From Streptomyces sp. LS1784 (GTDB lineage Bacteria > Actinomycetota > Actinomycetes > Streptomycetales > Streptomycetaceae): a stretch of 44,844 nucleotides of DNA. The DNA lies in the NCBI RefSeq assembly GCF_020103755.1, contig NZ_JAHSQD010000012.1, positions 1 through 44,844 of the forward strand. The letters run 5' to 3'. The translations under genes and the position numbers were made by a program. Position 1 is the stretch's first letter. Every line of letters starts with the position of its first letter. This document shows positions 6,285 through 41,951 of the stretch, one piece after another. The notes below the pieces were generated by a model, which was given only the letters and a program-made list of their open reading frames with translations, searched no databases and was not told where the DNA came from.

Positions 6285-6537
6285 AGCACTCCCTAGCCGT
6301 CGGAAAAATCGCACAGGGAACGTCACGGTACCCAGCGGAAGCCGGCTTGAGCGGCAGTAGCAGAGGCACCTTGGATGCGCTGTCGAGCACTCAAGATGCC
6401 TCCCTGGGAGCGCTGTTGATGCTTGTGGGTCCCCGCGAGCGGTGCGAGACTCCTGGCATAGATCGTTCACATGCTTGTGCCGACGGACCGCGCACCGACG
6501 GTCATCACGCGGCGATTGCCGGAAAGAGAGTCAATTC
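6285..6537. promoter_or_regulatory. Divergent intergenic region between aldolase and dioxygenase genes
   Basis: This 253-base gap separates two divergently transcribed genes with good ribosome sites at both ends, so it should hold promoters for both directions. No convincing -35/-10 pair or operator palindrome was recognised by eye. Confidence 0.5.
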
Positions 6538-7449: not shown

Positions 7450-7485
7450 CCTCCGCAGGAAACGCCTGATCGGGAGGGACTCGGC

Positions 7486-8268: not shown

Positions 8269-8279
8269 AGGACCCGTTC

Positions 8280-11355: not shown

Positions 11356-13061
11356 TGGTCACTTTCCTGTGTCGGGTCGGGGTCTGCGGTGAGCTCCGAG
11401 CGTTCCCCGGCCGCTGAGGTGGCCGCGGTCAGTGCGGCGGCCGGGGTGCTCCCGGCCGGATCGGCGGCGAGGCGGACGAGGCTCTCGTGCAGGGTGCGGG
11501 CGTACGCCTCGACCGAGGGCCGGGCGATGAAGCCCGGGTCGAAACCGATGCGCAGCTGCCCGCTCTCGCCCGTGATCTCCACGTTGACGTGGAAGGCGAA
11601 GCTGGGCTTGCCGCGCCGCCACCGGCCGCGAATGGGCGTGGCCGACGCCTCGTCGAGGTCCCGGTGGGCATGGAAGTGCATGTAGTTGAAGACCACCTGG
11701 AACGCGGGCCGGCCCAGGCGCTCGGTCAGCAGTGCCTGCGGGAAGTGCCGATGGGCGTAGCCCGTGCGCTCCAGCTGGTCGGCGGACCGGACCAGGTCCG
11801 CCCAGCTGCCGGCGACGGTGGCGAAACGGACCGGCAGGGTGTTGAGGAAGAGCCCGCTCGCGCGGTCCGAACCCTCGCTCTCCGGGCGGGTGTTGAACAC
11901 CAGTCCGGTCACGAGGTCCTGCTCGCGGCCGGACCAGGCGCCCAGCGCCGAGGCGTGCGCGGCCAGCAGCACCGACTTGAGCGAGGTGCCCAGCACGCGC
12001 GCCGCGTCCGACAGCGAGCCGACCAGGTCCGCCGCCAGGTCCAGCTCGTACCGCTCCGCCGCGTCCACCACGTGCGCGGGGGCGACGGGCCGGACGAGCC
12101 CGGCCGCGTCGCCCGCCTGGGCGAGCCAGTGCTCCGCCGCCTCCGCAGACGCGGCGGCGGCCAGTTCCGCGGCGATGAAGTCGTGCTGGACCCGGGCGTT
12201 GACCGCGGCCACCCGTTCGGCAGCCGCCGGGTCGACGCCCGCCTCGTAGAGGTGCACGAGTTCGACCGCGAGCCGGCTGAAGCTCCAGCCGTCCAGCACC
12301 GCGTGGTGAGCGGAGAGCGCCACATGGAACGAGTCGGGCAGCGTGACGACCAGGAACCGGACCAGCGGCGCGGTACGCCAGTCCAGCGGTGCGGCGCTCC
12401 GCAACGAGCGCCAGTCGTCGACCTGCAGCAGTGCCTGGTCCGCGGACTCGGCGTGCTCGACCCGCAGCTCGGGCTCGACCTGCTGCCACACCAGTTGGGC
12501 CGGTACGGACAGGTCGCCGAAGTCGAACGAGGTCCGCAGCGCGGGATGCCGGCGGGTCAGGCCCTGCACAGCTGCCCGGAACCGGTCCTCGTCGAACGGG
12601 GCGCACACCTTCCAGCCCTCGACGCTGTGGTACAGGTGAGGGTCCTGGCTGGTCTCGCACAGGTACAGCATCCCGGTCTGCAGCGCGGACGCGGGCAGCG
12701 CGTCCTGGAGGCTGTCCGGCAGGCGTTCGCGGTCCTCGTCGGTGAGCAGCGAGAAGGGACCGCCCGCCGCGGGCACCCCGGCGGCGGGGGCGGCTGCCGT
12801 GGTGTCCGGGGCCTCACCCGGCTGGAGGCCGGCGGCGTTCTGCAGCAGTGCGCGGACCGTCTGGTGGACCAGCAGGTCGCGCAGCGAGAGGTTGATGCCG
12901 TTGGCCCGTGCCTCGTTCACGACGCGCACTGCGAGAAGTGAATCGCCGCCCATGGCATAGAACTTGCTGTCGAGCGTGACCTCTGACGCCTCCAGGCTCT
13001 CCCTGAATATGGCCAGCAGGGTGCCCGCGGTCTCTTCCACGAGTATTTCTTCCGTACTCAT
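11352..13061 (-). CDS. Free-standing PCP-condensation NRPS didomain
   Basis: A 569-residue protein. Residues about 5-80 are a peptidyl carrier domain with FYAMGGDSLLAV (phosphopantetheine Ser41). After a Pro/Ala-rich linker (about 82-102), a condensation domain spans about 110-540 with an intact HHAVLDG motif (252-258) and the typical downstream segment VTGLVFNTRPE. There is no adenylation domain, so the carrier must be loaded in trans, probably by one of the A domains at 14623-17034 or 25310-28168. The ATG at 13061 overlaps the MFS stop as TGATG with GAGGGG upstream. It is the only working condensation domain in the cluster besides that of NRPS2. Confidence 0.92.
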   Translation of the reverse strand: MSTEEILVEETAGTLLAIFRESLEASEVTLDSKFYAMGGDSLLAVRVVNEARANGINLSLRDLLVHQTVRALLQNAAGLQPGEAPDTTAAAPAAGVPAAGGPFSLLTDEDRERLPDSLQDALPASALQTGMLYLCETSQDPHLYHSVEGWKVCAPFDEDRFRAAVQGLTRRHPALRTSFDFGDLSVPAQLVWQQVEPELRVEHAESADQALLQVDDWRSLRSAAPLDWRTAPLVRFLVVTLPDSFHVALSAHHAVLDGWSFSRLAVELVHLYEAGVDPAAAERVAAVNARVQHDFIAAELAAAASAEAAEHWLAQAGDAAGLVRPVAPAHVVDAAERYELDLAADLVGSLSDAARVLGTSLKSVLLAAHASALGAWSGREQDLVTGLVFNTRPESEGSDRASGLFLNTLPVRFATVAGSWADLVRSADQLERTGYAHRHFPQALLTERLGRPAFQVVFNYMHFHAHRDLDEASATPIRGRWRRGKPSFAFHVNVEITGESGQLRIGFDPGFIARPSVEAYARTLHESLVRLAADPAGSTPAAALTAATSAAGERSELTADPDPTQESDQ

Positions 13062-14356
13062 CAATGCCCCTCGACCTTGGTCGGGATTCCGGGAATGTCA
13101 CGCATGGTGCGCAGCGGCGAGAACACGACGAAGAGCGCCGCGCTCCACATGCCGAAGGTGCAGACCCACATGGTGGTGCGAAGGCCGGCGGTGGCACCGA
13201 GCGACCCGCCGAAGAGCGAGCCCAGCGGCACCACCCCGTAGCAGATCCACAAATACACCGAGCTCACCCGGCTCAGCAGGTCGGGCGGGCAGACCCGCTG
13301 GCGGTAGGAGAGCGAGGCGCTGTTGAACAGCGTCGAGTTCGCCGACAGGGCCGCCAGGCCGACGGCGAACATGGCCAGTCCCCAGCCCGGGCGGGCGGCC
13401 GGCATCAGCAGGTAGAGCGGCCCGGGGACCAGCATGGACAGCCAGACGATCCGCGCCGAGCCGACCGCGTTCGAGAGCCGGCTGGCGAACGCGCCGGCGA
13501 GCAGGCCGCCGATCGCGGCGGACGAGAAGACCAGGCCGATGGCCGTCGAGGAGGCGTGCAACTGCCGTGACATGAAGGTGACCTGGACCGAGGAGGCGGC
13601 CATGACGAAGAAGTTGGAGACGCTGGTGCAGATCAGCATCCGTCGCAGGACCGTCTCGTGGCGCACGAAGGCCAGCCCCTCAGCCATCGCGGTACGGAAC
13701 GGCGGGCGCTTGGCCGCATCCGCCGGCTCAGCGGCCGCGGGGACCCTGATCAGCCCGAGAGTGAGCGCGCTCAGCCCGTAGGTGGCGGCGTTCGCGAAGA
13801 GCCCGCGCGCGGCGCCCAGCCAGCCGACCAGCAGGCCGGCCAGCGCCGGCCCGCCCATCTCGGCGAGTGAGTCCGACATGCCCAGCTTGCCGTTGCCGTC
13901 GACCAGTTGGGTGCTGCTGACCAGCTTGGGCAGCTGGCTTCGGTAGGCGACGGTGAAGAGCACCGTCAGGGTGCCGGTCGCGCCGACCACGAGGTAGAGG
14001 TAGGGCAGGCTCAGCCAGCCGGTCATGCTCGCCACCGGGATCGACACCAGCAGCAGCATCCGGCCGAGGTCGCACGCGATCATCGTCCTGCGCTGGTCGA
14101 GGCGGTCGGCGACCACTCCGGCCGGGAGCGAGAAGAGCAGGTACGGCAGCCAGCCGAGCAGAGTCAACAGCGAGACCTGGAACGTTGACGCGTGTAGGAC
14201 GTCGAGAGCCAACAGCGGCATGGCGACCAGGGCGACCCGAGGGCCCAAGGTGCCCATTCCCTGGCCGGTCCACAGCAGCATGAAGTTCTTGTTCCGCCAC
14301 AGCGAGTCCGCGGGACCCGCCTCGGTGCGCCGCGCGGGCGCCGTCCGTTGTGTCAC
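13061..14356 (-). CDS. MFS efflux transporter (EntS-like)
   Basis: A major facilitator of about 431 residues with roughly twelve hydrophobic helices. The motif-A loop PAGVVADRLDQRRTMIACD follows helix 2. I chose GTG 14356 (VTQRTAPARR), preceded by AGGACAGGACA; upstream residues look non-coding, though the frame stays open to 14431. The sequence pattern (RNKNFMLLWTGQGMGTLG, NSASLSYRQRVCPPDLLSRV) fits the EntS/MFS_3 branch, which often exports siderophores or antibiotics. It is first in the operon with PCP-C and ATP-grasp, so it probably exports the finished peptide and confers self-protection. Confidence 0.88.
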   Translation of the reverse strand: MTQRTAPARRTEAGPADSLWRNKNFMLLWTGQGMGTLGPRVALVAMPLLALDVLHASTFQVSLLTLLGWLPYLLFSLPAGVVADRLDQRRTMIACDLGRMLLLVSIPVASMTGWLSLPYLYLVVGATGTLTVLFTVAYRSQLPKLVSSTQLVDGNGKLGMSDSLAEMGGPALAGLLVGWLGAARGLFANAATYGLSALTLGLIRVPAAAEPADAAKRPPFRTAMAEGLAFVRHETVLRRMLICTSVSNFFVMAASSVQVTFMSRQLHASSTAIGLVFSSAAIGGLLAGAFASRLSNAVGSARIVWLSMLVPGPLYLLMPAARPGWGLAMFAVGLAALSANSTLFNSASLSYRQRVCPPDLLSRVSSVYLWICYGVVPLGSLFGGSLGATAGLRTTMWVCTFGMWSAALFVVFSPLRTMRDIPGIPTKVEGH

Positions 14357-14622
14357 TGTCCTGTCCTGCCTTGCCTGACAACGTTGGGAACTCTGCCAGG
14401 CATACAGTGCCAGCTCCGCCGTAGCGCGCACCAGACCAGTGAGTGCGAACTACCGCCATTGTGCCCGGGGTTCTGCCGCCCGCCCGGCCGGACCGGTGCC
14501 TAGCATCGGTCTGCGCGTTTGTTGCCGACGGCACCGCGCCGAACATGAGGACATGTGCCGGCGGCCGTTGCTGCCTCACGGGAAATGCCCGTGCAAACCG
14601 ATCGAGATAGGTGAAAGCGCTC
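14357..14622. promoter_or_regulatory. Divergent promoter region between exporter operon and NRPS operon
   Basis: This 266-base gap lies between divergent MFS and NRPS1 genes and must carry the promoters for the two main biosynthetic operons. It is the most likely target for the XRE/NB-ARC regulator. I see no clear operator repeat. Confidence 0.5.
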
Positions 14623-17034
14623 GTGGGAAATGAGCTTCCGGGGCAGGCCGACGCCCCCACCGGGTTCCCCTTCGGCGGAACATGCTGTGCGACGGCGCCC
14701 TGCCGGAAGTCGCGGTCGACCCGCATTCTTCCGGCCGAGTTGGCGAGCCGCATCGGCGCCCACGCCGAGGAGCTCATCTGCGCGGCCGTGCTCGTCCTGG
14801 CACGCAAGTACGCCGACAGCACCGCCTTCTCGCTGGGGATCCGGCGGACGACCTGGTCGCCGACCGCGTCGGCCCGCGATCTGGTCGCCTCGATGCCCTC
14901 CTCGCTACGGCTGGCCGACCATCTCGCCTTCGTCGCCGCGGCGTTGCGGGCGGTGCGCGCCCCCGAGCCGGAGCGGGACGCCACGGCCGAGATCGTCTGC
15001 GTGCTCGACGGGCCGGCCGCAGTCGGCCTGGGTGCGGAGCTGGTCGTCTCGCACGAGCGATCCCAGGAGGGTGCCATCGTTCTGCACGCGGACGCCGACG
15101 AACACCGGTTCGGCACCCCCTTCGTGCAGCGGATGCTCGGACACCTGGAGCGGCTGCTCTATCAGATGTGCACTGAGGTGGAACTGACTATCGGGCAACT
15201 TTCCGTCACCACGGACGCCGAGGTCGAGCAGCTGCGTGCACTGACCTGCACGCGGCGGGACTACCCGCGCGACTCGGGCGTCTACCAGCTGTTCGCCGAA
15301 CAGGCGGCGGCCCGGCCGGACAGCGTGGCGATCAGTCACCAGGACGGGCCCACCAGCTACCGGGAGTTGCAGCAGCAGGCGGAGGAGCTTGCCCGCTGGC
15401 TGCGGGCGCAGGGGGTGTCCGCGGGCAGCCGCATCGCGTTCCTGCTGGAGAAGACCCCGCGGCTGCTCGCGGTGGTGCTGGCGATCGTGCGGCTGGGCGC
15501 CTGCTACGTCCCGATCGATCCCAGCACGCCGGCCGAGCGCCGGGCCTTCCTGCTCGCCGACAGCGGCGCCCGTCTGCTGGTCACCGAGGACCCGCGGGTC
15601 AGCGCCGACATCCCGGTGTTCGACCTCACCGCGTCCCGGGCGAACCCCGCGGACGGTGGACCGCTGCCGGCACCGGCGGGGCCGGAGGCCGAAGCGTACG
15701 TGATGTACACCTCGGGGACCACCGGCCGCCCCAAGGGCGTGGTGATCAACCAGCGCGCCGTGGTCCGGCTGGTGTACAACACCGACTTCGCGGACCTGTC
15801 GCCGGACGCCCGCATCCTGCAGACCGGCGCCATCGCCTTCGACGCCACGACCTTCGAGTTCTGGGGAGCGCTGCTCAACGGCGGCACCGTCGTGCTGGTG
15901 CCCGCCACCACCATGCTCAACGCAGTGGAGCTGCGGGCCGCCATCGAGCAGCACCGGGCGAACCTGATGTTCCTGACGGCCGCACTGTTCAACCAACTGG
16001 TCGACCAGGACCCGACGGCGCTGGCCGGCTGCCATGTGCTGGTGGGCGGCGAGGCGCTGTCCCCGGCGCATGTCGCGCGGGCCGTCGAGGCATGCCCGAG
16101 CAGCACCTTCAGCAACGCCTACGGTCCGACGGAGAACACCACGTTCTCAGTGGCGCAGCGCATCACCGAGACCGGCCAGGGCCGGATACCGATCGGGCGC
16201 CCGATCGCCAACTCCACGGCCTGGGTGCTTGACCGCGACGGCCACCCCCAGCCGCTCGGTGTCCCCGGCGAACTCCACGTCGGCGGCGACGGGCTGAGCT
16301 CCGGCTACCTCAACCGGCCCGAGCTCAACCAAGCGGCGTTCGTGGCGGCGCCCGGGATCGGCGAGGGCCGCCTCTACCGCACCGGTGACATCGTCCGCTG
16401 GACCGAGGACGGCCTGCTGGACTACCTCGGGCGCGCCGACAACCAGGTCAAGATCCGCGGTTACCGCATCGAACTGGGCGAGATCGAGGTCCAGTTGGGC
16501 CTGCTCCCGGGGGTCCGGGAGGCGGCGGTGGTGCTCCATCCGCTGGCCGACGGCATCCCGGCACTGCGGGCCTTCGTCACCGCGGAAGCCCGGATCGACG
16601 CGGCCGGCCTCGGCGAGCGGCTCGCCGCGGTGCTGCCCGAGTACATGATGCCCTCCGTGATCCAGCAGGTGCCCGCGATGCCCCGGACCCAGAACAACAA
16701 GATCGACCGGGCCGCACTGAACACGATCGCGCTGCCGTCCGCGGCCGCCGCAGCAGGGGAGCGCGCCCCGCGGACGGAGCTGGAGACCACAGTGGCCGCG
16801 GCCTTCGCCGAGGTGCTCGGGGTGGCGTCGGTCTCCCTGGACGACGACTTCTTCGAGCTCGGCGGCCACTCGCTGCGGATGATGCGGCTGTGGAACCGGC
16901 TCCGCTCGGTCACCGGCGTGCCGATCGAGCTCAAGCAGGTGCTCGACACCCCGACCGTGGCCGGCATCGCGGCCCTGCTGGAGCAGGGCGCCGCCGGGAG
17001 CGTGACGCGGCCGCGCCTGGTGCGCCGTTCGTGA
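14623..17034 (+). CDS. NRPS1: vestigial condensation domain, adenylation, PCP
   Basis: About 803 residues. AGGTGA eight bases upstream favours GTG 14623; GTG 14611 is in frame. Residues about 25-205 resemble only the later part of a condensation domain ([32 protein letters not shown]) and lack HHxxxDG. The adenylation domain follows with [45 protein letters not shown] and the A10 lysine in NNKIDR. The hand-extracted specificity code is about D-A-F-F-L-G-A-T-F-K, closest to branched aliphatic (Ile/Val) types. The PCP has [12 protein letters not shown] with Ser750. It starts the long plus operon, 46 bases before NRPS2. The module cannot condense on its own, so it probably loads a starter or serves PCP-C in trans. 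Confidence 0.9.
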
Positions 17035-17080
17035 CCCGCCACCCGTGCTGTCCGTCGGCCAGGGATTCCAAGGAGTGAGC

Positions 17081-20000
17081 GTGTTCCCGCTGTCCTACGC
17101 CCAACAGGGGCTCTGGTTCCTCAACCGCCTGGAGGGACCCAGCTCCACCTACAACGTGCCGGTGCTGGTGCGGCTGACCGGACCGCTCGACGCGCCGGCG
17201 CTCGAAGCCGCGCTGCTGGACGTCCTCACCCAGCACGAGAGCCTGCGCACAGTCTTCGGCGAGCACGAGGGCGTGCCGTACCAGCGCGTCCTCCCGGTGG
17301 CCGACACGGGCTTCGACCTGGTCCGGCTGGACACCGGCCGGCGGCCGCTCGCACAGGTGCTCCGGGACATCGTCGGCGAGCCCTTCGACCTGGCCGACGA
17401 CCTGCCGACGCGGGCCCGGCTGATCCAGGTGGCCGGCGAGGAGCACGTGCTGGCCCTGGTGCTGCACCACGCGGTCTGCGACGGCTGGTCCCTGACGCCG
17501 CTGCTGCGGGACCTGAGCACGGCCTACACCGCCCGCCGCGACGGCCGCGCACCCGACTGGGCCCCGCTGCCGGTGCAGTACAGCGACTACACGCTCTGGC
17601 AGCGGGAGTTGCTCGGCGACGACGAGGACCCCGACAGCCTCGTCAACCAGCAGCTGCGGTTCTGGCGGCAGACCCTGTCCGGGCTGCCCGACGAACTCGT
17701 GCTGCCGGACCAGGGCAGCGGCCAGCCGCGTGCCGCCGCCGCGCCGGCTAACGCCGAGGCCCCGGGAGCCACCTACGACCACCGGGTCGAGGCGGCCCTG
17801 CACGGCAGGCTGCTGGGTGTCGCCCAGCAGCACGGCTGCAGTCTGTTCATGCTGCTCCAGGCGGCGGTGGCTGCGCTGCTCACCCGCTGCGGCGCGGGGG
17901 TCGACATCCCCTTCGGCACCCCCACCGCGGGCCGCGCCGACGAGGCTCTCGACGCCCTGGTCGGTTACTTCGTCAACACCCTGGTGCTGCGCACGGACAC
18001 CTCGGGCAACCCGACCTTCGCGGAGCTGCTCGCCCGGGTGCGGGCGGCCGACTTCGACGCCTACAGTCACCAGGACCTGCCCTTCGACCGGCTCGTCGAG
18101 GCGCTGAACCCGAAGCGGTCGGCCTCCCGCCACCCGTTGTTCCAGGTGATGCTGGCCCTGCACGAGGGCAGTCCGGGCGACGCGCTCCAGCTGCCCGGGC
18201 TGAGCGCGCAGCTGCTCCGTCTCGGGACGCGGACCTCGAAGTTCAACCTCTCCATCGACTTCGAGGACCGGCGCGACGCGGCCGGGCAGGCGGCCGGGCT
18301 GCGGATCTCCCTCGAGTACGCGACGGACCTCTTCGAAGAGGGCGCCGTCCGGCTGCTAGCCGATCGCCTCGAACGGGTGCTGGCAGGGGTCGCTGACGAC
18401 CCGTCGGTGCGGCTGCGCGAGCTGCCGGTCCTGTCCGAGGCCGAGCAGCACCAGCAGCTCGTCGAGTGGAACGGTGCGCAGGTCGCGGAGCAGCCGGTCG
18501 ACCTCGCCCGAACTGTGCAGACCCGGGCGGCCAGGCAGCCGGACGCGGTCGCGGTGTCCGGCACGGACACGCGCTACACCTACCAGGAGCTCACCGACAC
18601 CGCGGCGGCCGTCTCCCACGCGCTGACCGCGTCCGGTGCCCGGGCCGACGACCTGACTGCGATCGTCTCCCGGCGTAGCACCTGGTTCGTCATGGCCGCG
18701 CTCGGCGCCCTCGGGGCCGGCACCGGCTACCTTGCGCTGGACGCCGAACTCCCCGCGGAGCGGGCGCAGAAGATGCTCGTGGACAGCCGCGCGCGGTTCG
18801 TGCTCACCGAACCCGGGCTGGCGGAGCTGAGCGCCGAGCTGCTGGCGGCCAGCGAGGGCGTGCAGTGCGTCGAGCCGCGGCCCGGAGCCGCTGGCCTGGC
18901 GGCCGGGGAGCTCTCCCCGGCCGCCGACGCCGGCACGCACCCGCTCGCCCTCGCCTACGCCGTGTTCACCTCCGGGTCCACCGGCCGGCCCAAGGGCGTC
19001 CTGGTGCCGCACCGAGGCCTGTCCAACCACCTGCTCGCCGTCGTCGAGCTCTACGGCCTCGACGAGCGCGACACGATGGCCTTCAACGCGCCGCTGACCT
19101 TCGACGTCGCTGTTTGGCAGGCGCTGACCATGGCGGTGGTGGGCGGTCGGGTCCACGTGCTGGATGAGGACACTATCCGCGACCCGCTGGCGCTCGTCCA
19201 GTGCGTCGCCGCCGAGGGCATCACCGTGCTGCAGATCGTGCCTCAGGTGCTGCGGGCGATCCTCGACCTGTGGGATCTCGACGACCGGTACGTCGACCTC
19301 CTGGGCGGGCTGCGCTGGATGCTGGTGCACGGTGAGGAGCTTCCCCCGGACTTGGTCGACCGATGGTTCTCGCGCCACCCCGGCATCCCGCTGGCCAACG
19401 TCTACGGGCCGGCCGAGTGCTCGGACGACGTGTCGATCTCGGTGATCCGCGCCGGCGACGACTACCGCCGCAAGCGGGCCCCGATCGGGCAGCTGCTGCG
19501 CAACATGAGGGCCTACGTCCTGGACGACTTGCTCCAACTGGTGCCGGCCGGTGTGGTGGGGGAGCTCTACGTCGGCGGCGCGGGCCTCGCCCGGGGCTAC
19601 GCCGGCCGGGCCGACCTCACCGCCCAGCGCTTCGTCGCCGACCCGCTCGGCACGCCTGGCGAACGGATGTACCGCACCGGTGACCTGGTCCGCTGGAGCG
19701 CCGGCGGTGAGCTGGAGTTCATGGGGCGGGCCGACCACCAGGTGAAGATCCGCGGGCACCGGATCGAGCCCGGCGAGGTGCAGGCCGTCCTGGAGCAGCA
19801 CGCCCTGGTCCACCAGGCGTTCGCGCTGGCCCGCGAGGACCGGCCCGGCGACACCCGCCTGGTCGCCTACGTGGTGCCGGTTTCGGGCGCTGCGCCCGAG
19901 CCGGCCGAGCTGCGGCGCCATGCCGTCGAGCAGCTGCCGGACTACATGGTCCCGTCGGCGTTCGTGTGCCTCGCCGAACTCCCGGTGACACCGAACGGCA

Positions 20001-21079
20001 AGATCGATCGGAAGGCCCTGCCGACCCCCGAGCCGGCCGCGACCCGGCTGGGAGCGGCGCCGCGTACCCCGCAGGAGGAACTGCTCTGCGGCCTCTTCTG
20101 CGAGCTGCTGGACCTGCCCCAGGTCGGCGTCGAGGACAGCTTCTTCGACCTCGGCGGGCACTCGATGCTGGCGATGCGCCTGCTCAGCCGCATCCGCACG
20201 GTGCTGGGACTGGACGTCACGGTGCGCTCGCTCTTCCAGGCGCCGACCGTGGCGGGGATCCTCGCGGCCAGCGGAGCGCGCGACGATGGTGAGGACTTTG
20301 GTGTGCTGCTGCCGCTGCGGCCCGGCGCCGACAGCCCACCGCTGTTCTGCGTCCATCCGGCCACCGGTCTGGCCTGGACCTACGCCGGGCTGGCCGCGTA
20401 CCTGCCGCCCACCGTGCCGCTGTACGGGCTGCAGGCCCCCGGCCTGGCCGAGGGGGCGAGCCGCCCCGCGGACCTGGCCGAGCTGACCGACCGGATGCTC
20501 GCCGAGATCCGCGGCGTGCAGCCGGAAGGCCCCTACCGGCTACTCGGCTGGTCGCTGGGCGGCAACATCGCCCAGGCGCTCGCCGCCCGGCTGGAGGGCG
20601 AGGGACACCGCGTCGACCTGCTCGTCCTGGTCGATGCCTACCCCGGCGAGGTCTGGCCCTACCCGGCCCACGCCACCCCCGAGCAGTGGGACGAGTTCAG
20701 CCTGCTGAGCACGCTCGCGCCGGAGGCGGTCGACCCCACGCGGGTCGACACGGACCTCAGCGGCGTGCTGGACCTGCTGCGCCCGGCCGCCCTGGAGCGG
20801 TTGGCGGTGGCGCCCGAGGTGCTGGACCGGCTGGTCCGGGTTGGTGTCAACGCCAGCCGGCTGGTGGCCCGGCACCGCCCGGCGCGCTTCACCGGCCGGA
20901 CCGTCTACTTCACCGCCACCCGCAGCCGCGGCGCCACCCGGCCGAGCCCGCGCTCCTGGGAGCCGTACCTGGCCGACCTCACCGAGCACGACCTCGACTG
21001 CCGGCACGAGGAGGCCATGGACGCCGAACCGCGCCGCCGGATCGCCCGGATCATCACGCCCGACCTGACCCGCCCGTGA
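17081..21079 (+). CDS. NRPS2: condensation, adenylation, PCP, thioesterase
   Basis: About 1332 residues forming a terminal module. GTG 17081 is chosen because AAGGAG lies five bases upstream and the protein then begins [16 protein letters not shown], the normal C1 motif; GTG 17045 is in frame but less likely. The condensation domain has HHAVCDG (129-135). The adenylation domain shows [50 protein letters not shown] and the A10 lysine in TPNGKIDRK. The hand-read code, about D-V-W-Q-L-H-V-D-D-K, matches no specificity I can name. The PCP serine is Ser1028 (LGGHSMLA). The type I thioesterase carries LGWSLGG with nucleophile Ser1158. It adds the last residue and releases the product by hydrolysis or cyclisation. 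Confidence 0.93.
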
Positions 21080-21118: not shown

Positions 21119-22528
21119 ATGACCGAACTCCTGCAACCGACCTCCTCACCCGCCGCCGAGTCGGAGCTGCGCAACCGCTTCCAGGGCCCGATCGTGGGGC
21201 CCGCCGACCCTGACTACGACACTGTGCGGGCGGTGTGGAACGGCATGCACGACCGCCGGCCGAGCCTGATCCTGCGCTGCACCGACACGACCGACGTCAG
21301 CGCCGCGCTGCGCTACGCCAAGGCGAGCGGCCAGGCGGTGACGGTCCGCGGCGGCGGCCACAACGTCGCGGGTACCGCGCTGGCCGACGGCGCCGTGCTG
21401 ATCGACCTGTCGCTGATGCGGGAGGTGACGATCGACCCGGAGCAGCAGCTCGCCCACGCCCAGGGCGGCTGCCTGCTCGGCGACGTCGACGCTGCGACCA
21501 CCGCGTACGGCCTGGCCTGCCCGGCCGGCGTCGTCTCGCACACGGGTCTGGGCGGACTCGCACTCGGCGGCGGCTACGGGTGGCTCGCCCGCAAGTGGGG
21601 CTTGACCTGTGATCACATCATCGCCGCGGAGGTTGTGCTGGCCGACGGCAGCGTCGTGGTGGCCGACGAGAGCAAGCACGCCGAGCTGCTCTGGGGGCTG
21701 CGCGGCGGCGGCGGCAACCTGGGCATCGTCACCCGCTTCACGCTCCGGCTGCGCCCGGTGGGCTCGGTGCACTTCCACACCGGTGTCTTCGCCCTCGCCG
21801 ACGGGGTGGCGGCGCTCGCTCGCTACCGGGAGTTCGCCGAGGCGCAGGCGCCCGACCTGCACACCGTCGGCGCTCTGAAGTACGCCGGCTCGCAGGACTG
21901 GGTGCCGGCCGAACTGCGGGGCAAGCCGGCGCTGTTCCTGACCTCGGTCTGGTTCGGCGACCCGGCCGAGGGGCCGGCGCAGACCGAGCCGCTGTTCGCG
22001 ACCGCGGCCGGCGACGAGGCCCGGCTGATGAGTTACGCCGAGCTGCAGGCCCTGGGCGACCACGGCGAGCCGCACGGGAACCGCTACTTCACCAAGTCCT
22101 GCTACCTGACCGAGCTCACCGCGGGTGCCGCCGAGGAGCTGATCGCGAGCGGGGCGGCGATGGTGTCCCCACGCTCGTCCATCGACTTCGAGTACCTGCG
22201 CGGCGCCATCGCCGAGGTCGCCGACGAAGCCTCCGCCTTCCCGCGCCGGGACGCCCCGTACATCGTCACCGTCTCGGCCCAGTGGACCGATCCCGCGCAG
22301 GACCAGGCCAACGCGGCCTGGAGCCGCGCGGGCGTCGAGCGGCTCGCGCCGTGGCACCTCGGCGGTGCCTACGTCAACTACCTGCAGGACGAGCAGCCGG
22401 GCAAGGTCGCCGAGGTCTACGGGACCCGGCGGTACGAGCGCCTGGCCGATCTCAAGCGCCGTTTCGACCCGGAGAACGTGTTGTCCGGCAACCAGAACAT
22501 CCCTCCCACCGCATCCGCGCACCAGTAA
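21119..22528 (+). CDS. BBE-like FAD-linked oxidoreductase
   Basis: A 469-residue flavoenzyme of the berberine-bridge/PCMH type. The FAD-binding loop is VRGGGHNVAG, where His81 is the expected 8-alpha covalent attachment. The second attachment Cys of bicovalent members is replaced: the segment reads CPAGVVSHTGLGGLALGGGYG, with Val at the equivalent place. A single covalent link is therefore predicted. The C-terminus has the BBE-type motif AYVNYLQDE and RYERLADLKRRFDPENVL. No signal peptide is visible, so it is cytosolic. Relatives oxidise alcohols or amines or drive oxidative ring closure. It lies 39 bases after NRPS2 and 14 before the AsnRS-like gene, so it is probably a late tailoring oxidase. 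Confidence 0.92.
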   Translation: MTELLQPTSSPAAESELRNRFQGPIVGPADPDYDTVRAVWNGMHDRRPSLILRCTDTTDVSAALRYAKASGQAVTVRGGGHNVAGTALADGAVLIDLSLMREVTIDPEQQLAHAQGGCLLGDVDAATTAYGLACPAGVVSHTGLGGLALGGGYGWLARKWGLTCDHIIAAEVVLADGSVVVADESKHAELLWGLRGGGGNLGIVTRFTLRLRPVGSVHFHTGVFALADGVAALARYREFAEAQAPDLHTVGALKYAGSQDWVPAELRGKPALFLTSVWFGDPAEGPAQTEPLFATAAGDEARLMSYAELQALGDHGEPHGNRYFTKSCYLTELTAGAAEELIASGAAMVSPRSSIDFEYLRGAIAEVADEASAFPRRDAPYIVTVSAQWTDPAQDQANAAWSRAGVERLAPWHLGGAYVNYLQDEQPGKVAEVYGTRRYERLADLKRRFDPENVLSGNQNIPPTASAHQ

Positions 22529-22542
22529 GAAGGGGCATCCCA

Positions 22543-23601
22543 ATGTCGCAGCACACTTCGCATACTCCGAGTGTCATGCCCCCGGCAACCTATGCCAGCA
22601 ACGAGCCGGGAGCCTTCGTCAAGGCCCTGCGCTCGCCCTGGTACCAGCTCGTGGCAGAGCTCCACGAGACCCTCCAGTGGGCGACCATGGAGTACGCGCG
22701 CTCGCAGGGCCTCAAGCACCTGTGGCTGCCGATCACCACACGCACGGTCACCTGCCCGACCGCGCTGGGCAGCGACACCGAGGCGGTCAAGGTCAGCGTC
22801 AGCGGCGTTGACACCTACCTGGCGGACTCGATGCAGTTCGCGCTGGAGTACGGCTGCCGCCTCTCGCCCGGCGGGTGCTACAGCATCCTGCCGTCCTTCC
22901 GCGGCGAGACCCCGGACGCCACACACCTGAACCAGTTCACGCACAGCGAGGCCGAGATCCCCGGTGGGATGGAGGACCTCATCCGTTACGTCAACGGCTA
23001 CGTCAAGGCGCTCGCCGCGGCCGTGCTCGACCAGCACGGCGACCGGCTGGCCGACGCGCGCGGCGACATCTCCCACCTGGAGCGAATGGTCAACCACACC
23101 GCCCCGTTCGAGCGGCTGACCTTCGACGAGGCCGTCAGGTTGGTGCAGGACGAGGACGGCTGCGTCCGTGACGAGGGAGACTGGCGCACCCTCACGCGCA
23201 AGGGCGAGCGCCTGCTGATGACCAAGGTCAGCGAGTTCCTCTGGGTGCACGACCTGGACACCCTGGCGGTGCCGTTCTACCAGGGCTTCGGTCCGGACGA
23301 CAGCAGCCGAGCCCGCTGCGCCGACCTCTTCTTCGGGATGGGCGAGGTCGTCGGCTCCGGGGAACGCCACGTCGACGCCGACCTGCTGCGCAAGTCCATG
23401 GCGATGCACAACGTCAAGGAGGACGAGTACGACTGGTACGTCCGCATGCGCGAGGAGAGTCCGATGCTGACCTCCGGGTTCGGCATGGGCTTCGAACGCT
23501 TCCTGATGTGGGTGCTCAATCATGACGACATCCGCGACCTCCCGCTGATCTCCCGGGTCAACGAGCCCGAGGCGTGGCCCCCGGCGGTTGTCCGGCCGTA
23601 G
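22543..23601 (+). CDS. Asparaginyl-tRNA-synthetase catalytic-domain paralog (AS-A/amide ligase-like)
   Basis: A 352-residue class II aminoacyl-tRNA-synthetase fold. Motif 2 is SFRGETPDATHLNQFTHSEAE. The AsnRS-type late segment is GEVVGSGERH, then KEDEYDWYVRMREE. Motif 3 is TSGFGMGFERFLMWVL, followed by DIRDLPLISR. Real AsnRS has an N-terminal OB-fold anticodon-binding domain of about 100 residues; here the catalytic core starts within about 30 residues of the ATG, so tRNA binding is probably lost. Stand-alone AsnRS-core proteins of archaea (AS-AR) make asparagine from aspartate, ATP and ammonia. By analogy this enzyme probably adenylates a carboxylate and transfers it to ammonia or another amine. 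It sits mid-operon, 14 bases after the flavoenzyme, so it is likely biosynthetic. A resistance role is less likely. Confidence 0.85.
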   Translation: MSQHTSHTPSVMPPATYASNEPGAFVKALRSPWYQLVAELHETLQWATMEYARSQGLKHLWLPITTRTVTCPTALGSDTEAVKVSVSGVDTYLADSMQFALEYGCRLSPGGCYSILPSFRGETPDATHLNQFTHSEAEIPGGMEDLIRYVNGYVKALAAAVLDQHGDRLADARGDISHLERMVNHTAPFERLTFDEAVRLVQDEDGCVRDEGDWRTLTRKGERLLMTKVSEFLWVHDLDTLAVPFYQGFGPDDSSRARCADLFFGMGEVVGSGERHVDADLLRKSMAMHNVKEDEYDWYVRMREESPMLTSGFGMGFERFLMWVLNHDDIRDLPLISRVNEPEAWPPAVVRP

Positions 23602-23699: not shown

Positions 23700-24476
23700 A
23701 TGACGCTCCAGCCCGTACCGCTCCTGTGCCTGCCTTACGCGGGCGCGGGTGCGAGCGTGTTTTGGAAGTGGCGCCAACTGGCGCCGCTGGGCCTGCGACT
23801 CGCGCCCCTGCAGCTGCCGGGGCGCGAGGAGCGGACCAACGAGGAACCGTTCCGTAGTGTGGCCGACGCCGTTCATGCCCTGCTGCCCGACGCCGTGGCC
23901 GCGGCGGCCGGACATCGCCGGGTCGCCGTGTTCGGTCACAGCATGGGCGCCGTCCTGGCCTTTGAACTCGCCCGCGCCCTTGAGGAGCGCACCGAGATCC
24001 CGGTGGCTCACGTGTACGTGAGCGGATCGCCGGGGCCTTACCACGGCCGCGCCGAGAACACCGTCGACCTCGACGACGACACCTTCCTCGCCGCTGTGGA
24101 GCAGTTCGCCGGGCACCGGCACCCGGCCTTCGAGTTCCCGGAGTTCCGGGAACTGCTGCTGCCGATGTTGCGCGCGGACGTGGCCATGCACGAGAGCTAC
24201 CGCCCGCTGTCCGACGCCCCGATCCAGGCGCCGGTCAGCTGCCTACGCGGCGACCAGGACACCCTGGTCAGCGCGGACGACGCTGCGCAGTGGTGCAAGG
24301 TGACGACCGGTCGGTTCACCTACATCGAGCGGCCCGGCGGCCACATGTACCTGCTCGACACGCCTGCAGAGCTGCTGCGCCTGATCGCCGCGGACCTGCA
24401 CCCCGACGCGCCGGCAGAGGCGCTCGCCGGCCCGGCGCAGGGTGCTTCGAGCAGTCGGGAGACGCCGTGCGACTAG
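23700..24476 (+). CDS. Type II thioesterase
   Basis: A 258-residue external thioesterase. The start is the ATG at 23700, since the upstream in-frame extension is not protein-like. Diagnostic segments are LCLPYAGAGASVFWKW (about residues 9-24), LQLPGREER, the nucleophile elbow VFGHSMGAVLAFELAR, MLRADVAMHESY, LRGDQDTLVS (acid) and GGHMYLLD (catalytic His). Such proteins clear misacylated or blocked carrier domains of NRPS lines. The short unstructured tail overlaps the start of the following SDR by ten bases, so the two are translationally coupled. Confidence 0.94.
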   Translation: MTLQPVPLLCLPYAGAGASVFWKWRQLAPLGLRLAPLQLPGREERTNEEPFRSVADAVHALLPDAVAAAAGHRRVAVFGHSMGAVLAFELARALEERTEIPVAHVYVSGSPGPYHGRAENTVDLDDDTFLAAVEQFAGHRHPAFEFPEFRELLLPMLRADVAMHESYRPLSDAPIQAPVSCLRGDQDTLVSADDAAQWCKVTTGRFTYIERPGGHMYLLDTPAELLRLIAADLHPDAPAEALAGPAQGASSSRETPCD

Positions 24477-25291
24477 CAGACAGGACTGTCATCGTGACCG
24501 GGGCCGGCCGCGGGCTCGGCCGTGCGACCGCCGTCCGCTTCGCCCAGGAGGGCGCGGATCTCGTGCTCCTCGACGTCGGCGCGGACATCAAGGGCGTGCC
24601 GTACCCGCTGGCCAGCCGCGACCAGCTGGACCGGACCAACGAGTTGTGCCGGCAGGCCGGCGCCTCCACCCTGCCGCTACTAGCGGACGTCCGCGACAGC
24701 GCGTCGGTGCGGGCGGCGGTCGACGGCGCGCTGCGGCGGTTCGGCCGGGTCGACGCGCTGGTCAACAACGCCGGTATCGCGGCTCCGTCGGGCAAGCCGG
24801 TGCACGAGATCAGCGACGACGAGTGGGAGTTGATGCTCGACGTCGACCTCTCCGGGGCCTGGCGGATGATCCGGGCCGTCGCGCCCGCCATGCTGGAGCA
24901 GCGCAGTGGCAGCATCGTCAACGTCTCCTCGACGGCCGGCCTCGTCGGGTACCGGCACTTCGCGGCCTATGTCGCGGCGAAGCACGCCCTGGTCGGGCTG
25001 ACCAAGGCGGCGGCGCTCGACTTCGCCCCGCGTCAGGTGCGGGTCAACGCCCTGTGTCCGGGCTCGGTGCGCGACGCCGCCCACGTCGAGGGCCGCATGC
25101 TCTCCGAGATCGCCCGCAGTCTCGACGTGGACGTCGACGAGCACGAGCAGACTTTCGTCACGGCCCAGCCGATGAACGCGCTGATCGAGCCGGAGGAGAT
25201 CGCGAACGCGGCGCTCTGGCTGGCCGGCGACGACTCCCGCCAGGTGACCGGAACCACGCTCACTGTCGACGGCGGCTTCTCCGCCCGATGA
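24467..25291 (+). CDS. Mycofactocin-type short-chain dehydrogenase
   Basis: A 274-residue SDR from GTG 24467 (GGGAG five bases upstream), overlapping the thioesterase stop. It has TGAGRGLGRATAV (cofactor loop), NNAGIAAPSG, NVSSTAG and the catalytic YVAAK. Between beta-2 and the next helix it carries the insertion GADIKGVPYPLASRDQL, characteristic of the mycofactocin-coupled SDR subfamily, whose members hold nicotinamide tightly and need an external redox partner. No mycofactocin genes (mftA-F) are in this window, so the partner must be elsewhere or the flavoenzyme may substitute. It ends 18 bases before NRPS3. A role in oxidising an alcohol of the peptide or a building block is inferred. Confidence 0.88.
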   Translation: MRLADRTVIVTGAGRGLGRATAVRFAQEGADLVLLDVGADIKGVPYPLASRDQLDRTNELCRQAGASTLPLLADVRDSASVRAAVDGALRRFGRVDALVNNAGIAAPSGKPVHEISDDEWELMLDVDLSGAWRMIRAVAPAMLEQRSGSIVNVSSTAGLVGYRHFAAYVAAKHALVGLTKAAALDFAPRQVRVNALCPGSVRDAAHVEGRMLSEIARSLDVDVDEHEQTFVTAQPMNALIEPEEIANAALWLAGDDSRQVTGTTLTVDGGFSAR

Positions 25292-25309: not shown

Positions 25310-28168
25310 GTGGATGAAGAGATGACTGAACAGACTCACACAGGGACCGACACCTGGCCCGTGCTCGGCGGCCAGGCCGAGCACGGCCTGGTCCTCCGGC
25401 TGTCCGGCGCCGCCGCGATCGAGCGGGCGGCGGCGGAGGTCACCCAAGCGGCCGCGTCAGCGCGACTGGCCGAGATGGGCAGCTACTGGATCACCGACGC
25501 CGGAGCTGGGTCGTGCTCGGCCGCGGCCGCCGGGCGCGGGCGCCGGGAGGCGCTGCGCCCGCTTCCGCGTGGCGCCGGTCTACGCGTGGTCCTGACACGC
25601 TACCAGGACGAGGCCGCCGACCTGAGCATCGTCGCCCGCCGTGGGCTGCTGGACCACGGCGGCCTGCGCAGGCTGGCTGGGGCGCTGACGACCGCCGACG
25701 CCGAGGCGACCGCCGTGCTCGGTGCCCTGCACGAGGCGGGCGTGCCCGGGACCGCGGGCTGGCGTCCGGCCGCCGCACCTGGCTGGGGGCTGGCCGGTGA
25801 CATCGTGTCCGTTCCCGTGCCGGCAACCGGCCCCGAGTCCCGCGAAGCGGCTGGCCGGACGCCCGTGCGCCCCGGCTGCGTCGTCGCCGCCGCCGCTCTC
25901 GCCCTGAGCCGGTACGAGCGCAGCGCCGCGGTACGGCTGGCCGTAGTGTCGACGGAGTCCTTCGGGTACGCCCCCGAGGCCAAGGTGGTCCAGATCGAGG
26001 TCGACGAGGATCTGGCGATCGGGCAGTTGCTCGGCCAGGTCGAGTCCAGGCTCCGCGATCCGGGAGAGGCCGGTGGCGAGGAGAGTCCCGCGGTCTGCGT
26101 GGTGCTGACCGACCGCCGGCTTGACGAGACATACCTGCCCTTCGCCCCGCACGCCTTCCCGTTGGTACTGACATTCGTCCAGGAGCAGGGCGATGTCCTC
26201 CTCGACACGTCCGCCGGGGCGCCCGAGGCCGTGCACGCGACCGTCGCCGAGGCGTTCACCCGCCAGGTCGAGTGGCTCGCGTCCCAGCTGGACCGTGCGC
26301 CGGCCGAGCAGACCGTCAGCAGCCTCTCGCTTCTCTCCGACGCGCAGGCGCATGCCGTCGTCGCACTGGCGGACAACACCGCGCTGGGCGGTGCGCAGCT
26401 CACGGCCATCCCTGGCATCATCGAACTGCTGGCTCGGGCCCAGCCGGACGCGATCGCCGTGAGCGACGAGACACGGCAGTTGAGCTACCGGGAACTGGAT
26501 GAGTCTGCCTCGACGTGGGCCCGCGCTCTGGTGCGGCAGGGCGTTGCATCCGGCGAGTTCGTCGGCGTCTGCCTCAAGCGCACCGTCGACCTGGTGGTCG
26601 CCCTGCTGGCCGTGCTGAAGACCGGTGCTGCCTACGTCCCGCTCGACCCGCACGCGCCGGACGAGCGCCTGCGGTATATCGCACAGGACGCCGAGCTCAG
26701 CGTGGTCATCAGCACCCTCTCCACCTTCCCCGCTCGGCCGGGTACGCCGGTACTCTCGCCCAGTGCCCTCTCGGAGGCGGCGCGGACGTCACCCGACCTG
26801 ACACTGCCGGCTGTCCGCCCCGAGGACACCGCCTATGTCATCTACACCTCCGGAACCACCGGGCGGCCCAAGGGCGTGGTGGTGCCGCACGGCAACGTCG
26901 TGGCCCTGCTGGAGGCCACGCGCAAGGATATGGCGCTCGGCTCGGACGACGTCTGGACCTTCTTCCACTCGGCGGCCTTCGACTTCTCGGTCTGGGAGAT
27001 CTGGGGCTGCCTGATCACGGGGGGACACCTGGTCGTCGTGCCCTACCTGGTCACCCGGTCGCCCGAGGACTTCCACGCCCTTCTGGTGCGCGAGGGCGTC
27101 ACCTTGCTGAGCCAGACCCCGTCCGCCTTCGCCGGCCTGTTGGAGGTCGACGCGTCCAAGGGAGGGCCCTCACCGCGCATCGTCGTCTTCGGCGGCGAGG
27201 CCCTCGACCCGAAGATGCTGGGCGGCTGGTTCCGTCGCCATCCGGTCCGCGAGAGCCGGCTCATCAACATGTACGGCATCACTGAGACAACTGTGCATGT
27301 CACTCTGCACGACGTGCAGCCCTGGGCGCCCGCCGAGCGCGCTCGCACCGTAGGGCGCCCGCTCGCCGGGTGGTCCCTCTCCATCCGCGACGCGCAAGGC
27401 CGCCCGCTGCCCCCCGGCGCGGTCGGCGAGATCTGGGTCGGGGGAGCCGGACTCGCGAAGCAGTACCTCAACCGGCCCGAACTCACCGTCGAGCGCTTCG
27501 TGGTTGACGGCGTCACAGGCCAGCGCCTGTACCGCAGCGGCGATCTGGGGCGGCTCAGGCTCGATGGCTCGGTCGACCACGTCGGACGGCTGGACGACCA
27601 GGTCAAGATCCGCGGTTTCCGCATCGAACTGGGCGAGATCCGCTCGGTTCTCCTCGACGACCCCGGCGTGACGGATGCCGCGGTGATCGTCCGCGGCCAG
27701 GAAGCCGGACCGGCCCACACACGCATCGTCGCCTACGTCGTGGCGGCCGACGGCTCGAGCGCCGCGGACATCCGGCGGCGCGCCTCGGGCCTGCTGCCCG
27801 ATTACATGGTGCCGGCGGAGCTGATCACGCTACCCGCACTGCCGTTGACCATCAACGGCAAGCTGGACCGCGCGGCGCTGCCCGATCGAGCCACGGCTGC
27901 GGGGCGGACGGAGGAGGTGCTCGCCTCCGATCACCCCGCGGCTTCCGACACCCTGGACAGGCTCCTCGCCATCTGGCGGGCCGTCGTGGCGCCGGACGCC
28001 CGAGCCGACGACCACTTCTTCGAGAACGGCGGTAACTCCCTGCTCGCGGTCCAGCTCCTGAGCGCTGTGCGCAAGGCAGGACTGGGCTCGGTCGCGTTGC
28101 GCGACCTCTACGCCCACCCCACGCCGTCGGGGCTGGCGGCCTGCCTCATGCCCGGCGTGCCAGGCTGA
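25310..28168 (+). CDS. NRPS3: inactive condensation-like domain, adenylation (Thr-like code), PCP
   Basis: 952 residues from GTG 25310; ATG 25322 is an alternative. Residues about 20-345 form a condensation-like fold in which HHxxxDG reads RRGLLDH (110-116), so both catalytic histidines are lost. The adenylation domain follows with [65 protein letters not shown] and the A10 lysine in INGKLDR. The hand-read code D-F-W-S-V-G-M-V-H-K differs from the standard threonine code (DFWNIGMVHK) at two positions, suggesting Thr or a Thr analogue. The PCP has FFENGGNSLLAV with Ser910. With no working condensation or release domain, it must act with the PCP-C protein or NRPS2. It is the last gene of the plus operon. 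Confidence 0.92.
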   Translation: MDEEMTEQTHTGTDTWPVLGGQAEHGLVLRLSGAAAIERAAAEVTQAAASARLAEMGSYWITDAGAGSCSAAAAGRGRREALRPLPRGAGLRVVLTRYQDEAADLSIVARRGLLDHGGLRRLAGALTTADAEATAVLGALHEAGVPGTAGWRPAAAPGWGLAGDIVSVPVPATGPESREAAGRTPVRPGCVVAAAALALSRYERSAAVRLAVVSTESFGYAPEAKVVQIEVDEDLAIGQLLGQVESRLRDPGEAGGEESPAVCVVLTDRRLDETYLPFAPHAFPLVLTFVQEQGDVLLDTSAGAPEAVHATVAEAFTRQVEWLASQLDRAPAEQTVSSLSLLSDAQAHAVVALADNTALGGAQLTAIPGIIELLARAQPDAIAVSDETRQLSYRELDESASTWARALVRQGVASGEFVGVCLKRTVDLVVALLAVLKTGAAYVPLDPHAPDERLRYIAQDAELSVVISTLSTFPARPGTPVLSPSALSEAARTSPDLTLPAVRPEDTAYVIYTSGTTGRPKGVVVPHGNVVALLEATRKDMALGSDDVWTFFHSAAFDFSVWEIWGCLITGGHLVVVPYLVTRSPEDFHALLVREGVTLLSQTPSAFAGLLEVDASKGGPSPRIVVFGGEALDPKMLGGWFRRHPVRESRLINMYGITETTVHVTLHDVQPWAPAERARTVGRPLAGWSLSIRDAQGRPLPPGAVGEIWVGGAGLAKQYLNRPELTVERFVVDGVTGQRLYRSGDLGRLRLDGSVDHVGRLDDQVKIRGFRIELGEIRSVLLDDPGVTDAAVIVRGQEAGPAHTRIVAYVVAADGSSAADIRRRASGLLPDYMVPAELITLPALPLTINGKLDRAALPDRATAAGRTEEVLASDHPAASDTLDRLLAIWRAVVAPDARADDHFFENGGNSLLAVQLLSAVRKAGLGSVALRDLYAHPTPSGLAACLMPGVPG

Positions 28169-28410: not shown

Positions 28411-29694
28411 ATGCGTCAGCCGGTGCGTATCCCCATACCGGCCGCACCGGAGCGGATGAACCCCGTCATCACCACGGTGCTGGCGGTGGCCTGCGGGCTG
28501 ACCGTGGCCAACCTCTACTACGCCCAGCCTCTGCTCGAACTCGTCGCCCGTTCATTCGGGGTGAGCCAGGGCACGGCGACAACAGTGGTGACACTGACTC
28601 AGGTGGGCTACGCTCTCGGGCTGTTGTTCGTGCTCCCGCTCGGCGACCTGGTCGAGAACCGCCGACTCGCCACCCGGACGCTGGTGGTGACGGCGACCGC
28701 GCTGCTGCTCGCCGCGGCGAGCCCGTACTTCGCCATGTTCCTCGCCGCCTCGGTGCTGGTAGGCACCACGTCCGTGGTCGCCCAGGTGCTCGTCCCGCTC
28801 GCCGCCCACCTCGCGCCCGCCGACCGGCGCGGCGCGATCGTCGGCCAGGTGATGAGTGGCTTGCTGATCGGCATCCTGCTCGCCCGCACGGTCGCCAGCC
28901 TGGTGGCCGATCTGCTCGGCTGGCGGGCGATCTACTGCGTCTCCGCGGCGCTGATGGTGCTGCTCGCCCTGGTGCTGCGCTGCGTACTGCCGCACCGTGC
29001 CCCCGAACACACCGCCAACTACCGCTACCTGCTTGCCGGCCTGGGCGAACTGGCGCGCCGGGAACCGGTGCTGCGCCGCCGCGCGCTCTGCCAGGCGACG
29101 ATGTTCGCAGCCTTCACGGCCTTCTGGACCGTCATCGCCTACGAGCTCATCGACGAGCACCACTTCGGCCAGGCCCAGATCGCCCTCTTCGCTCTGGCCG
29201 GCGTGGGCGGTGCGGCCGCGGCCCCGGTCGCTGGCCGCATCGCCGACCGCGGCCATGGCAGCAGCGCCAGCGGTGCCGCGCTGCTGCTTGCCTCGCTCGC
29301 CTTCTTTCTCGCCGCCGCCGGACACCGGTGCGTCCCACTGCTCGCCGCCGCCGCGGTGCTGTTGGACTTCGCCGTCCAGGCCCACCAGGTCATGAGCCAG
29401 CACGAGATCTACGCCCTGCGCGGCGACGCCCGCGCCCGGATCAACACCGTCTTCATGACCTCCGTCTTCGTCGGCGGCGCCGGCTCCTCGGCCGTCGCCG
29501 GCGTCCTGCACACCGCGTTCGGCTGGCGCGGCGTCTGCGCGTTCGGCGCCCTCCTCCCACTGGTGGGCCTGCTCATGTGGGCTTACGGCGCGTGGACGAT
29601 GACACCGCGTGGTCGGCCGTCCGCAGGCCCGGAGCATCCAGCGGAGCCCGCGCGGAGCGCGACCCGTACCCAACAGCGAGTGACCGGGCTGTGA
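28411..29694 (+). CDS. MFS transporter (YnfM/NepI-like)
   Basis: A 427-residue major facilitator with about twelve membrane helices. Early features are GLTVANLYYAQPLLELVARSF and the motif-A-like loop LPLGDLVENRRLATRT. Other landmarks are LLIGILLARTVASLVADLLGWR and MSQHEIYALRGDARARINTVFM, typical of the YnfM/sugar-efflux branch. The hydrophilic tail (about residues 395-427) is unstructured. The gene is 242 bases after NRPS3, beyond a likely terminator, so it may have its own promoter. It probably exports the product or an intermediate, but it might be an unrelated flanking gene. Confidence 0.88.
   Translation: MRQPVRIPIPAAPERMNPVITTVLAVACGLTVANLYYAQPLLELVARSFGVSQGTATTVVTLTQVGYALGLLFVLPLGDLVENRRLATRTLVVTATALLLAAASPYFAMFLAASVLVGTTSVVAQVLVPLAAHLAPADRRGAIVGQVMSGLLIGILLARTVASLVADLLGWRAIYCVSAALMVLLALVLRCVLPHRAPEHTANYRYLLAGLGELARREPVLRRRALCQATMFAAFTAFWTVIAYELIDEHHFGQAQIALFALAGVGGAAAAPVAGRIADRGHGSSASGAALLLASLAFFLAAAGHRCVPLLAAAAVLLDFAVQAHQVMSQHEIYALRGDARARINTVFMTSVFVGGAGSSAVAGVLHTAFGWRGVCAFGALLPLVGLLMWAYGAWTMTPRGRPSAGPEHPAEPARSATRTQQRVTGL

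Positions 29695-40460: not shown

Positions 40461-41951
<1,491 letters not shown>

Follow-up and report, generated by a model that had tools for sequence, protein, structure and literature searches.

A stand-alone AsnRS core assigned to the AgnA family in a Streptomyces NRPS gene cluster

The gene at 22543-23601 encodes P0001, an intact AsnRS catalytic core without an OB-fold that sits in a compact NRPS operon, and by sequence comparison the protein is a member of the AgnA family, named here after the agrocin 84 synthetase. We propose, with moderate confidence, that P0001 is an AgnA-family enzyme with an AsnRS core which adenylates an Asn-like amino acid for a building block or end group of the NRPS peptide. 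The window is the whole stretch of DNA analysed, 44,844 nucleotides from Streptomyces sp. LS1784, and the window clade denotes P0001 together with its 14 closest family members in the tree described below.

The core gene and its cluster

The open reading frame of P0001 spans exactly 22543-23601 on the plus strand, from ATG to stop (352 aa). The motif AAGGGG ends 7 bases upstream of the start codon, and 14 bases separate the gene from the stop codon of the upstream gene. A previous reading made from the sequence only (the sequence-only reading) had placed the gene in an NRPS operon, and this location is borne out by a same-strand run from 14611 onward that contains A-T, C-A-T-TE and A-T proteins. 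The features of the cluster are:

10060-11355, minus strand: ATP-grasp ligase, BacD-like
11352-13064, minus strand: NRPS T-C didomain, the carrier without an A-domain of its own
13061-14431, minus strand: MFS transporter
14611-17034, plus strand: NRPS A-T, code Val/Ile-like (by eye)
17045-21079, plus strand: NRPS module C-A-T-TE, A-domain at 18518-20005 with code DVWQLHVDD, common across the clade
21119-22528, plus strand: FAD-dependent EncM homologue (414 bits, E 5.7e-123, alignment over EncM residues 7-465 of 469)
22543-23601, plus strand: P0001, AgnA-family AsnRS core without OB-fold, 352 aa (by Pfam, model and tree)
22606-22782, plus strand: N-terminal helices and putative lid loop (67-RTVTC-71) of P0001, residues 22-80, the stretch setting the window clade apart from the rest of the family
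23700-24476, plus strand: type II thioesterase (start picked by eye)
24467-25291, plus strand: short-chain dehydrogenase, SDR (start picked by eye)
25310-28168, plus strand: NRPS A-T, code DFWSVGMVH, Thr-like (by eye)
28411-29694, plus strand: MFS transporter

Relatives of eleven window genes surround the core in the cluster of genome G040, namely both A-T proteins, the C-A-T-TE module, the FAD enzyme, the core, the thioesterase, the SDR, the ATP-grasp ligase, the T-C protein, an MFS transporter and a regulator. Left of the NRPS genes, 1367-9991 of the window holds genes for an SDR, a FAH-family hydrolase, an HTH regulator, an HMGL-like aldolase, a PhyH oxygenase, an alpha/beta hydrolase, a HisC-like aminotransferase and a LysE exporter. 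These genes possibly form a second precursor pathway, and among them only the regulator has a match in the G040 cluster.

Fold and loss of the OB-fold

P0001 matches Pfam tRNA-synt_2 (E 9.6e-31), and a sequence profile of 14 relatives picks out AsnRS as the closest proteins of solved structure (1x54, E 9.7e-36). The structure predicted for P0001 has a mean pLDDT of 91.5 (built with 52 sequences), and its best match is the AsnRS of P. horikoshii with Asn-adenylate (1x54; Z 36.8, rmsd 2.2, 316 residues). The archaeal AspRS 3nel comes next (Z 34.9), and the archaeal asparagine synthetase A 3p8t, a shorter chain, reaches Z 29.1. The structural comparison with asparagine synthetase and AsnRS proposed in the sequence-only reading hence came out on the side of AsnRS, and the modelled fold alone would separate AsnRS from AspRS weakly. 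The model aligns to 1x54 from residue 110 onward only, and therefore the OB-fold anticodon domain is missing, as expected from the earlier description of an AsnRS core without an anticodon-binding domain. P0001 shares with AsnRS (1x54) the catalytic-core fold, the ATP-site residues and the amino-acid pocket residues, but AsnRS has the OB-fold and differs in its motif-2 loop and lid.

Relatives of P0001 at 33-71% identity are found across many genomes and plasmids, which rules out chance. Matches of the P0001 type (E <= 1e-20) occur in 16 of 297 related genomes, its own included, which tells against a housekeeping gene.

Catalytic, pocket and lid residues

We compared residues between P0001 with 95 relatives (96 family rows), two AsnRS and two actinomycete asparagine synthetase A proteins of the archaeal type (L004 and L122_7206), and the same pocket positions were also read from alignments in 3p8t and 1nnh. 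R120 of motif 2, E268 and R275 of the late GE..G.GER region, and R319 of motif 3 are invariant in 96/96 family rows, which upholds the earlier observation of intact motifs 2 and 3 and an intact late AsnRS region. E122 is present in 95 of the 96 rows and is D in the remaining one.

The amino-acid pocket, for which we assume residue roles as in AspRS and AsnRS structures, is of the AsnRS type. Gln98, Glu102 and Glu136 occur in all 96 family rows and in AsnRS, compared with Ile, Gln and Asp in asparagine synthetase A; position 101 is Leu in 95 rows and Phe in one, Val in AsnRS and Lys in asparagine synthetase A. Lys101 and Asp136 (P0001 numbering) are present in 3p8t, 1nnh, L004 and L122_7206, and we take these two to be the Asp-binding residues of AspRS. 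P0001 does not have them, with Leu at 101 and Glu at 136. Archaeal asparagine synthetase A has been described as an AspRS descendant that binds Asp in the AspRS manner (PMC3532385).

Motif-2 loop positions that are basic in AsnRS are non-basic in the window clade, with T127 in 15/15 members vs R in both AsnRS rows. In the putative lid, R67, T68, T70 and C71 are common to all 15 members, and position 71 is Ser in 81/81 other family members. By analogy with AsnRS, we infer that loop 67-71 may be the flipping loop. The window clade also has a C-terminal RP tail that is absent from the other 81 family members.

Membership in the AgnA family

AgnA, the agrocin 84 synthetase of pAgK84 (L123 14977-16038), was found by a plasmid search and is 36% identical to P0001 over 337 aa. 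In a tree of 101 rows, a 100/99 branch separates the 96 family rows, AgnA among them, from AsnRS and asparagine synthetase A. The 15 proteins of the window clade form a single 100/100 clade within the family, the remainder of which is paraphyletic, and AgnA itself sits on a long branch (1.49). Judged by sequence, P0001 is therefore a member of the AgnA family, and its gene lies inside a specialised-metabolite cluster. We know of no AgnA-family member with a solved structure.

AgnA is presented in a review as an AsnRS homologue without an anticodon-binding domain that serves antibiotic biosynthesis (PMC4392301). Like P0001, it is a stand-alone AsnRS core with the same pocket and the motif-2 loop RGExxDxTHL, encoded by an antibiotic-cluster gene. 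However, its cluster carries an MccF-like peptidase, methyltransferases and an immune LeuRS, none of which occurs in the window. The AgnA cluster makes an N-acyl phosphoramidate nucleotide, the toxic moiety of agrocin being described with an N-acyl phosphoramidate bond (PMC4307249), whereas the window is an NRPS cluster.

Gene neighbourhoods of the family

Neighbouring genes within +-10 kb were counted for the 15 loci of the window clade and 81 others (96 in all), in a sample that includes the best 80 of 125 loci found and whose loci are often cut by contig ends. The neighbour profiles were made from the counted loci themselves, with Pfam checks on single representatives. Left out of the count were nine duplicates (L043, L051, L053, L076, L077, L087, L089, L105 and L108), L041 (about 29% identity, grouping with the outgroup), and L024, L027 and L029, which are second pieces without the core.

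In this sample with the best 80 of 125 loci found, an S66 peptidase lies within 10 kb at 69 of the 81 non-clade loci (12 are without), S66 and a methyltransferase together at 60/81, an extra aaRS (MetRS, LeuRS, AlaRS or class IIa-type) at 34/81, and any of the three at 73/81. Within the same +-10 kb, S66, methyltransferase and extra aaRS were each found at 0/15 window-clade loci. The S66 contrast gives a Fisher p of 1.3e-10, which is overstated since the absence is one evolutionary event. A single S66 gene is present in the 9.56 Mb of the window genome, and a chance neighbour within 10 kb is thus expected at about 0.2%. As a control, none of eight asparagine synthetase A loci, five of which are close orthologues (89-97% to the copy in the window genome), had any of nine profiles. 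The S66 proteins are called MccF-type from their Pfam family and cluster context, and their specificity may be that of MccF or of LdcA.

By analogy, S66, methyltransferase and extra aaRS genes near the family cores would be features of aminoacyl-nucleotide antibiotics. Neighbours of an agrocin 84-type cluster, that is an MccF-like S66 and an immune aaRS nearby, were found at none of the 15 window-clade loci. The absence of S66, methyltransferase and aaRS from 15/15 loci suggests that the chemistry of the clade may have shifted from that of the rest of the family.

Core relatives also occur on the annotated plasmids L123, L125, L127, L128, L129 and L130, beside S66 or LD-carboxypeptidase and SAM methyltransferase genes, and five of these six loci (not L130) have an extra AlaRS, LeuRS or class II aaRS. 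No S66, methyltransferase or extra aaRS was found near the core at plasmid locus L126 or in the Pantoea record L124. In Pantoea agglomerans plasmids (L124 11389-12984), an N-terminal GNAT acetyltransferase is fused to the core and followed by an MFS gene. MccE and MccF are described as inactivating microcin C, the reactions being acetylation and hydrolysis (PMC7916415). The Pantoea pair is reminiscent of MccE-type immunity and may by analogy be a unit of two genes for an antibiotic or for resistance. A conserved Streptomyces cluster (L109, L113, L115 and L040) combines an AgnA relative with an APH-type kinase, a ParA-type NTPase, a decarboxylase, a methyltransferase and S66.

The EncM-like gene and the shared A-domain

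EncM is an enzyme of the enterocin polyketide cluster. The FAD enzyme upstream of P0001 is homologous to it along the whole length but, unlike EncM, is paired with an AsnRS core next to NRPS genes. At 11 of the 15 window-clade loci, the gene immediately upstream of the core, on the same strand, is EncM-like (61-71% identity), and the other genomes have no more than relatives at <= 43%, or none at E <= 1e-60 (G304). Clusters with NRPS genes likewise surround 11/15 clade loci. A relative of the A-domain in the window's C-A-T-TE module is found within the cluster at 8 of the 11 EncM-bearing loci and was not found in the cluster at L045, L052 and L122. With code positions that we take from GrsA, the code DVWQLHVDD is present at the seven loci where the full domain is readable (the window, L023, L028, L042, L044, L046 and L048), and L047 has DVWQ in a truncated A-domain and DTWQMHMDD in a second. 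The best PDB relative of this A-domain is linear gramicidin synthetase A, a match that does not settle the substrate, and a literature search found no occurrence of the code. The recurrence of this A-domain together with the EncM-like gene favours a shared monomer.

At L025, L026, L049 and L050 (4/15), a tRNA_edit protein lies just upstream of the core (by tblastn at all four and by Pfam on the L049 copy), and the flanks also hold MFS and ATP-grasp genes. The flanks fetched for these loci yielded no carrier, C or A domain; an ORF at the edge of L049 groups in an NRPS similarity cluster, yet no A or C domain was detected there. As such domains were not found near these four EncM-less members, the core can act on free substrates. 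Their stand-alone tRNA-editing protein possibly gives self-protection against a mischarged product.

In Streptomyces lavendulae CCM 3239, the cluster with the EncM-like gene and the core is present on both chromosome arms (L042 and L043).

Proposed function

The AsnRS-type pocket of P0001 would take up ATP together with an amino acid that resembles asparagine in having a carboxamide or similar group on its side chain, and the adenylate formed would never be handed to tRNA. The product would be a modified building block or end group of the NRPS peptide, worked on jointly with the EncM-type flavoenzyme, and is probably tied to the monomer activated by the DVWQLHVDD A-domain. Within this scheme, the class of substrate, its adenylation and the connection with the shared monomer are our inferences.

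For the AgnA branch, a stable P-N link plausibly takes the place of the mixed anhydride, with S66 peptidases and immune aaRS as guards. With the guards gone and the lid altered, the window branch might either deliver a P-N product as a peptide or turn the adenylate into a monomer, through attack of a nucleophile or through rearrangement. Within the AgnA-family explanation, AMP could stay attached by a P-N bond, as it does in agrocin 84, or be displaced by a nucleophile; the former is by analogy a serious prospect that falls somewhat short of even. A more specific proposal, which we put forward tentatively and consider rather unlikely as a whole, is that the clade makes NRPS peptides in which the AsnRS core joins a nucleotide by a P-N bond to an asparagine-like end or side chain, with EncM-type oxidation as a further step. 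If true, this would be an assembly-line route to peptide-nucleotide antibiotics, where microcin C is made ribosomally.

Alternative explanations

Stand-alone cores of this kind had been likened in the sequence-only reading to archaeal asparagine synthetases, an analogy that the present comparisons do not support for P0001. An amide synthetase of this kind would activate the carboxylate of Asp, a cluster-derived acid or a peptide and transfer ammonia or an amine. Like P0001, archaeal asparagine synthetase A (3p8t) is a stand-alone class IIb core without an OB-fold and aligns well enough with the model to give the Z score above; the nearest NCBI models are named 'asparagine synthetase A', and the related cluster L122 has methylaspartate mutase genes. 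However, 3p8t has the AspRS-type Lys and Asp in its pocket in place of Leu and Glu, and P0001 falls short of the curated cut-offs set for asparagine synthetase A (202.1 bits vs 322, and 180.4 vs 389). All eight AgnA-family proteins scanned, P0001 included, remain under these cut-offs (190-271 bits vs 322 or 389), and their best models are the ones named asparagine synthetase A or have scores below them. In contrast, L122 carries both a P0001-like gene and a separate asparagine synthetase A (L122_7206) which passes NF005052 (456.9 bits vs a cut-off of 368). The window genome likewise has its own true asparagine synthetase A-type gene, L004, which is 24% identical to P0001 and of a type present in 8 of 41 genomes searched, its own included. 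Because of the AsnRS-like Leu/Glu pocket and the separate true-type gene, P0001 appears unlike asparagine synthetase; on pocket residues and curated cut-offs we demoted this assignment, and an amide synthetase of this kind is unlikely. Amide or ester formation driven by ATP, as first suggested for P0001, is possible. AgnA relatives, including agnA copies on Agrobacterium plasmids, are publicly annotated 'asparagine synthetase A' despite their scores below the cut-offs, and the label is probably misleading.

Two further explanations are, in our view, each improbable. SerRS-derived amino acid:carrier protein ligases are a precedent for P0001 loading an amino acid onto a carrier, here the T domain of the T-C protein without an A-domain. 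The orphan carrier domain in the window (11352-13064) and the NRPS genes around 11/15 clade loci agree with such a role, but the flanks fetched at L025, L026, L049 and L050 contain no carrier domain, and both carrier domains found in L122 sit in proteins annotated with adenylation domains. The enzyme could instead activate an amide, the adenylate collapsing to an AMP-free nitrile, amidine or ring and so to an unusual amino acid for the DVWQLHVDD A-domain. The pocket suits a carboxamide, an A-domain of identical code recurs with the core, and a tRNA-editing protein adjoining the core in four members would be expected if the product were a mischargeable amino acid. Least probable by far is that P0001 serves tRNA charging or self-resistance, or is a decayed housekeeping gene. 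The AsnRS function is formally vacant in the window genome, as the top asnS score of any protein there is 248.6 bits against a cut-off of 342.6, but gatB is over its cut-off (484.9 vs 314.8), and the two together point to the indirect Asn-tRNA route. P0001 has no OB-fold, and in all likelihood, judging from these sequence features, it is not a tRNA-charging enzyme. A housekeeping gene would sit poorly with matches in so few of the related genomes, and P0001 is not decayed because its catalytic residues are intact.

Wider family and literature

By its neighbours, an aaRS-core family annotated 'asparagine synthetase A' appears dedicated to antibiotic-like clusters in many phyla, and agrocin 84 is the one named member that we met in it. 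The window branch connects the AgnA family with NRPS assembly and with an EncM-type flavoenzyme, centred on a single monomer that recurs. The core, the EncM-like enzyme and the A-domain are three small proteins that can be expressed and assayed, which makes the chemistry of the family testable, and the loop RGExxDxTHL, the RTxTC lid and an EncM-like gene upstream provide a signature for genome mining. In open-licence PMC literature, we found no report of AgnA homologues tied to NRPS genes or of S66 genes beside members of the wider family. In PMC5047915, a 'lysine-tRNA synthetase-like' gene is hit in transposon mutants defective in antifungal activity, and a nucleotide antibiotic is guessed at.

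A connection with three nucleotide antibiotics, EM2487, 1100-50 and K-563, was dropped as too weak. It was based on S. lavendulae being a producer of 1100-50 and on S. lavendulae CCM 3239 having a 70% relative; as described, compounds of this type combine cytidine or uridine with a cyclopentane and an alkylamine and are unfit for an NRPS cluster.

Towards the right end, the window encodes a mycosin-like subtilase (40461-41951, plus strand) and an ORF predicted by eye to be a secreted serine protease-like protein (43099-44253, minus strand).
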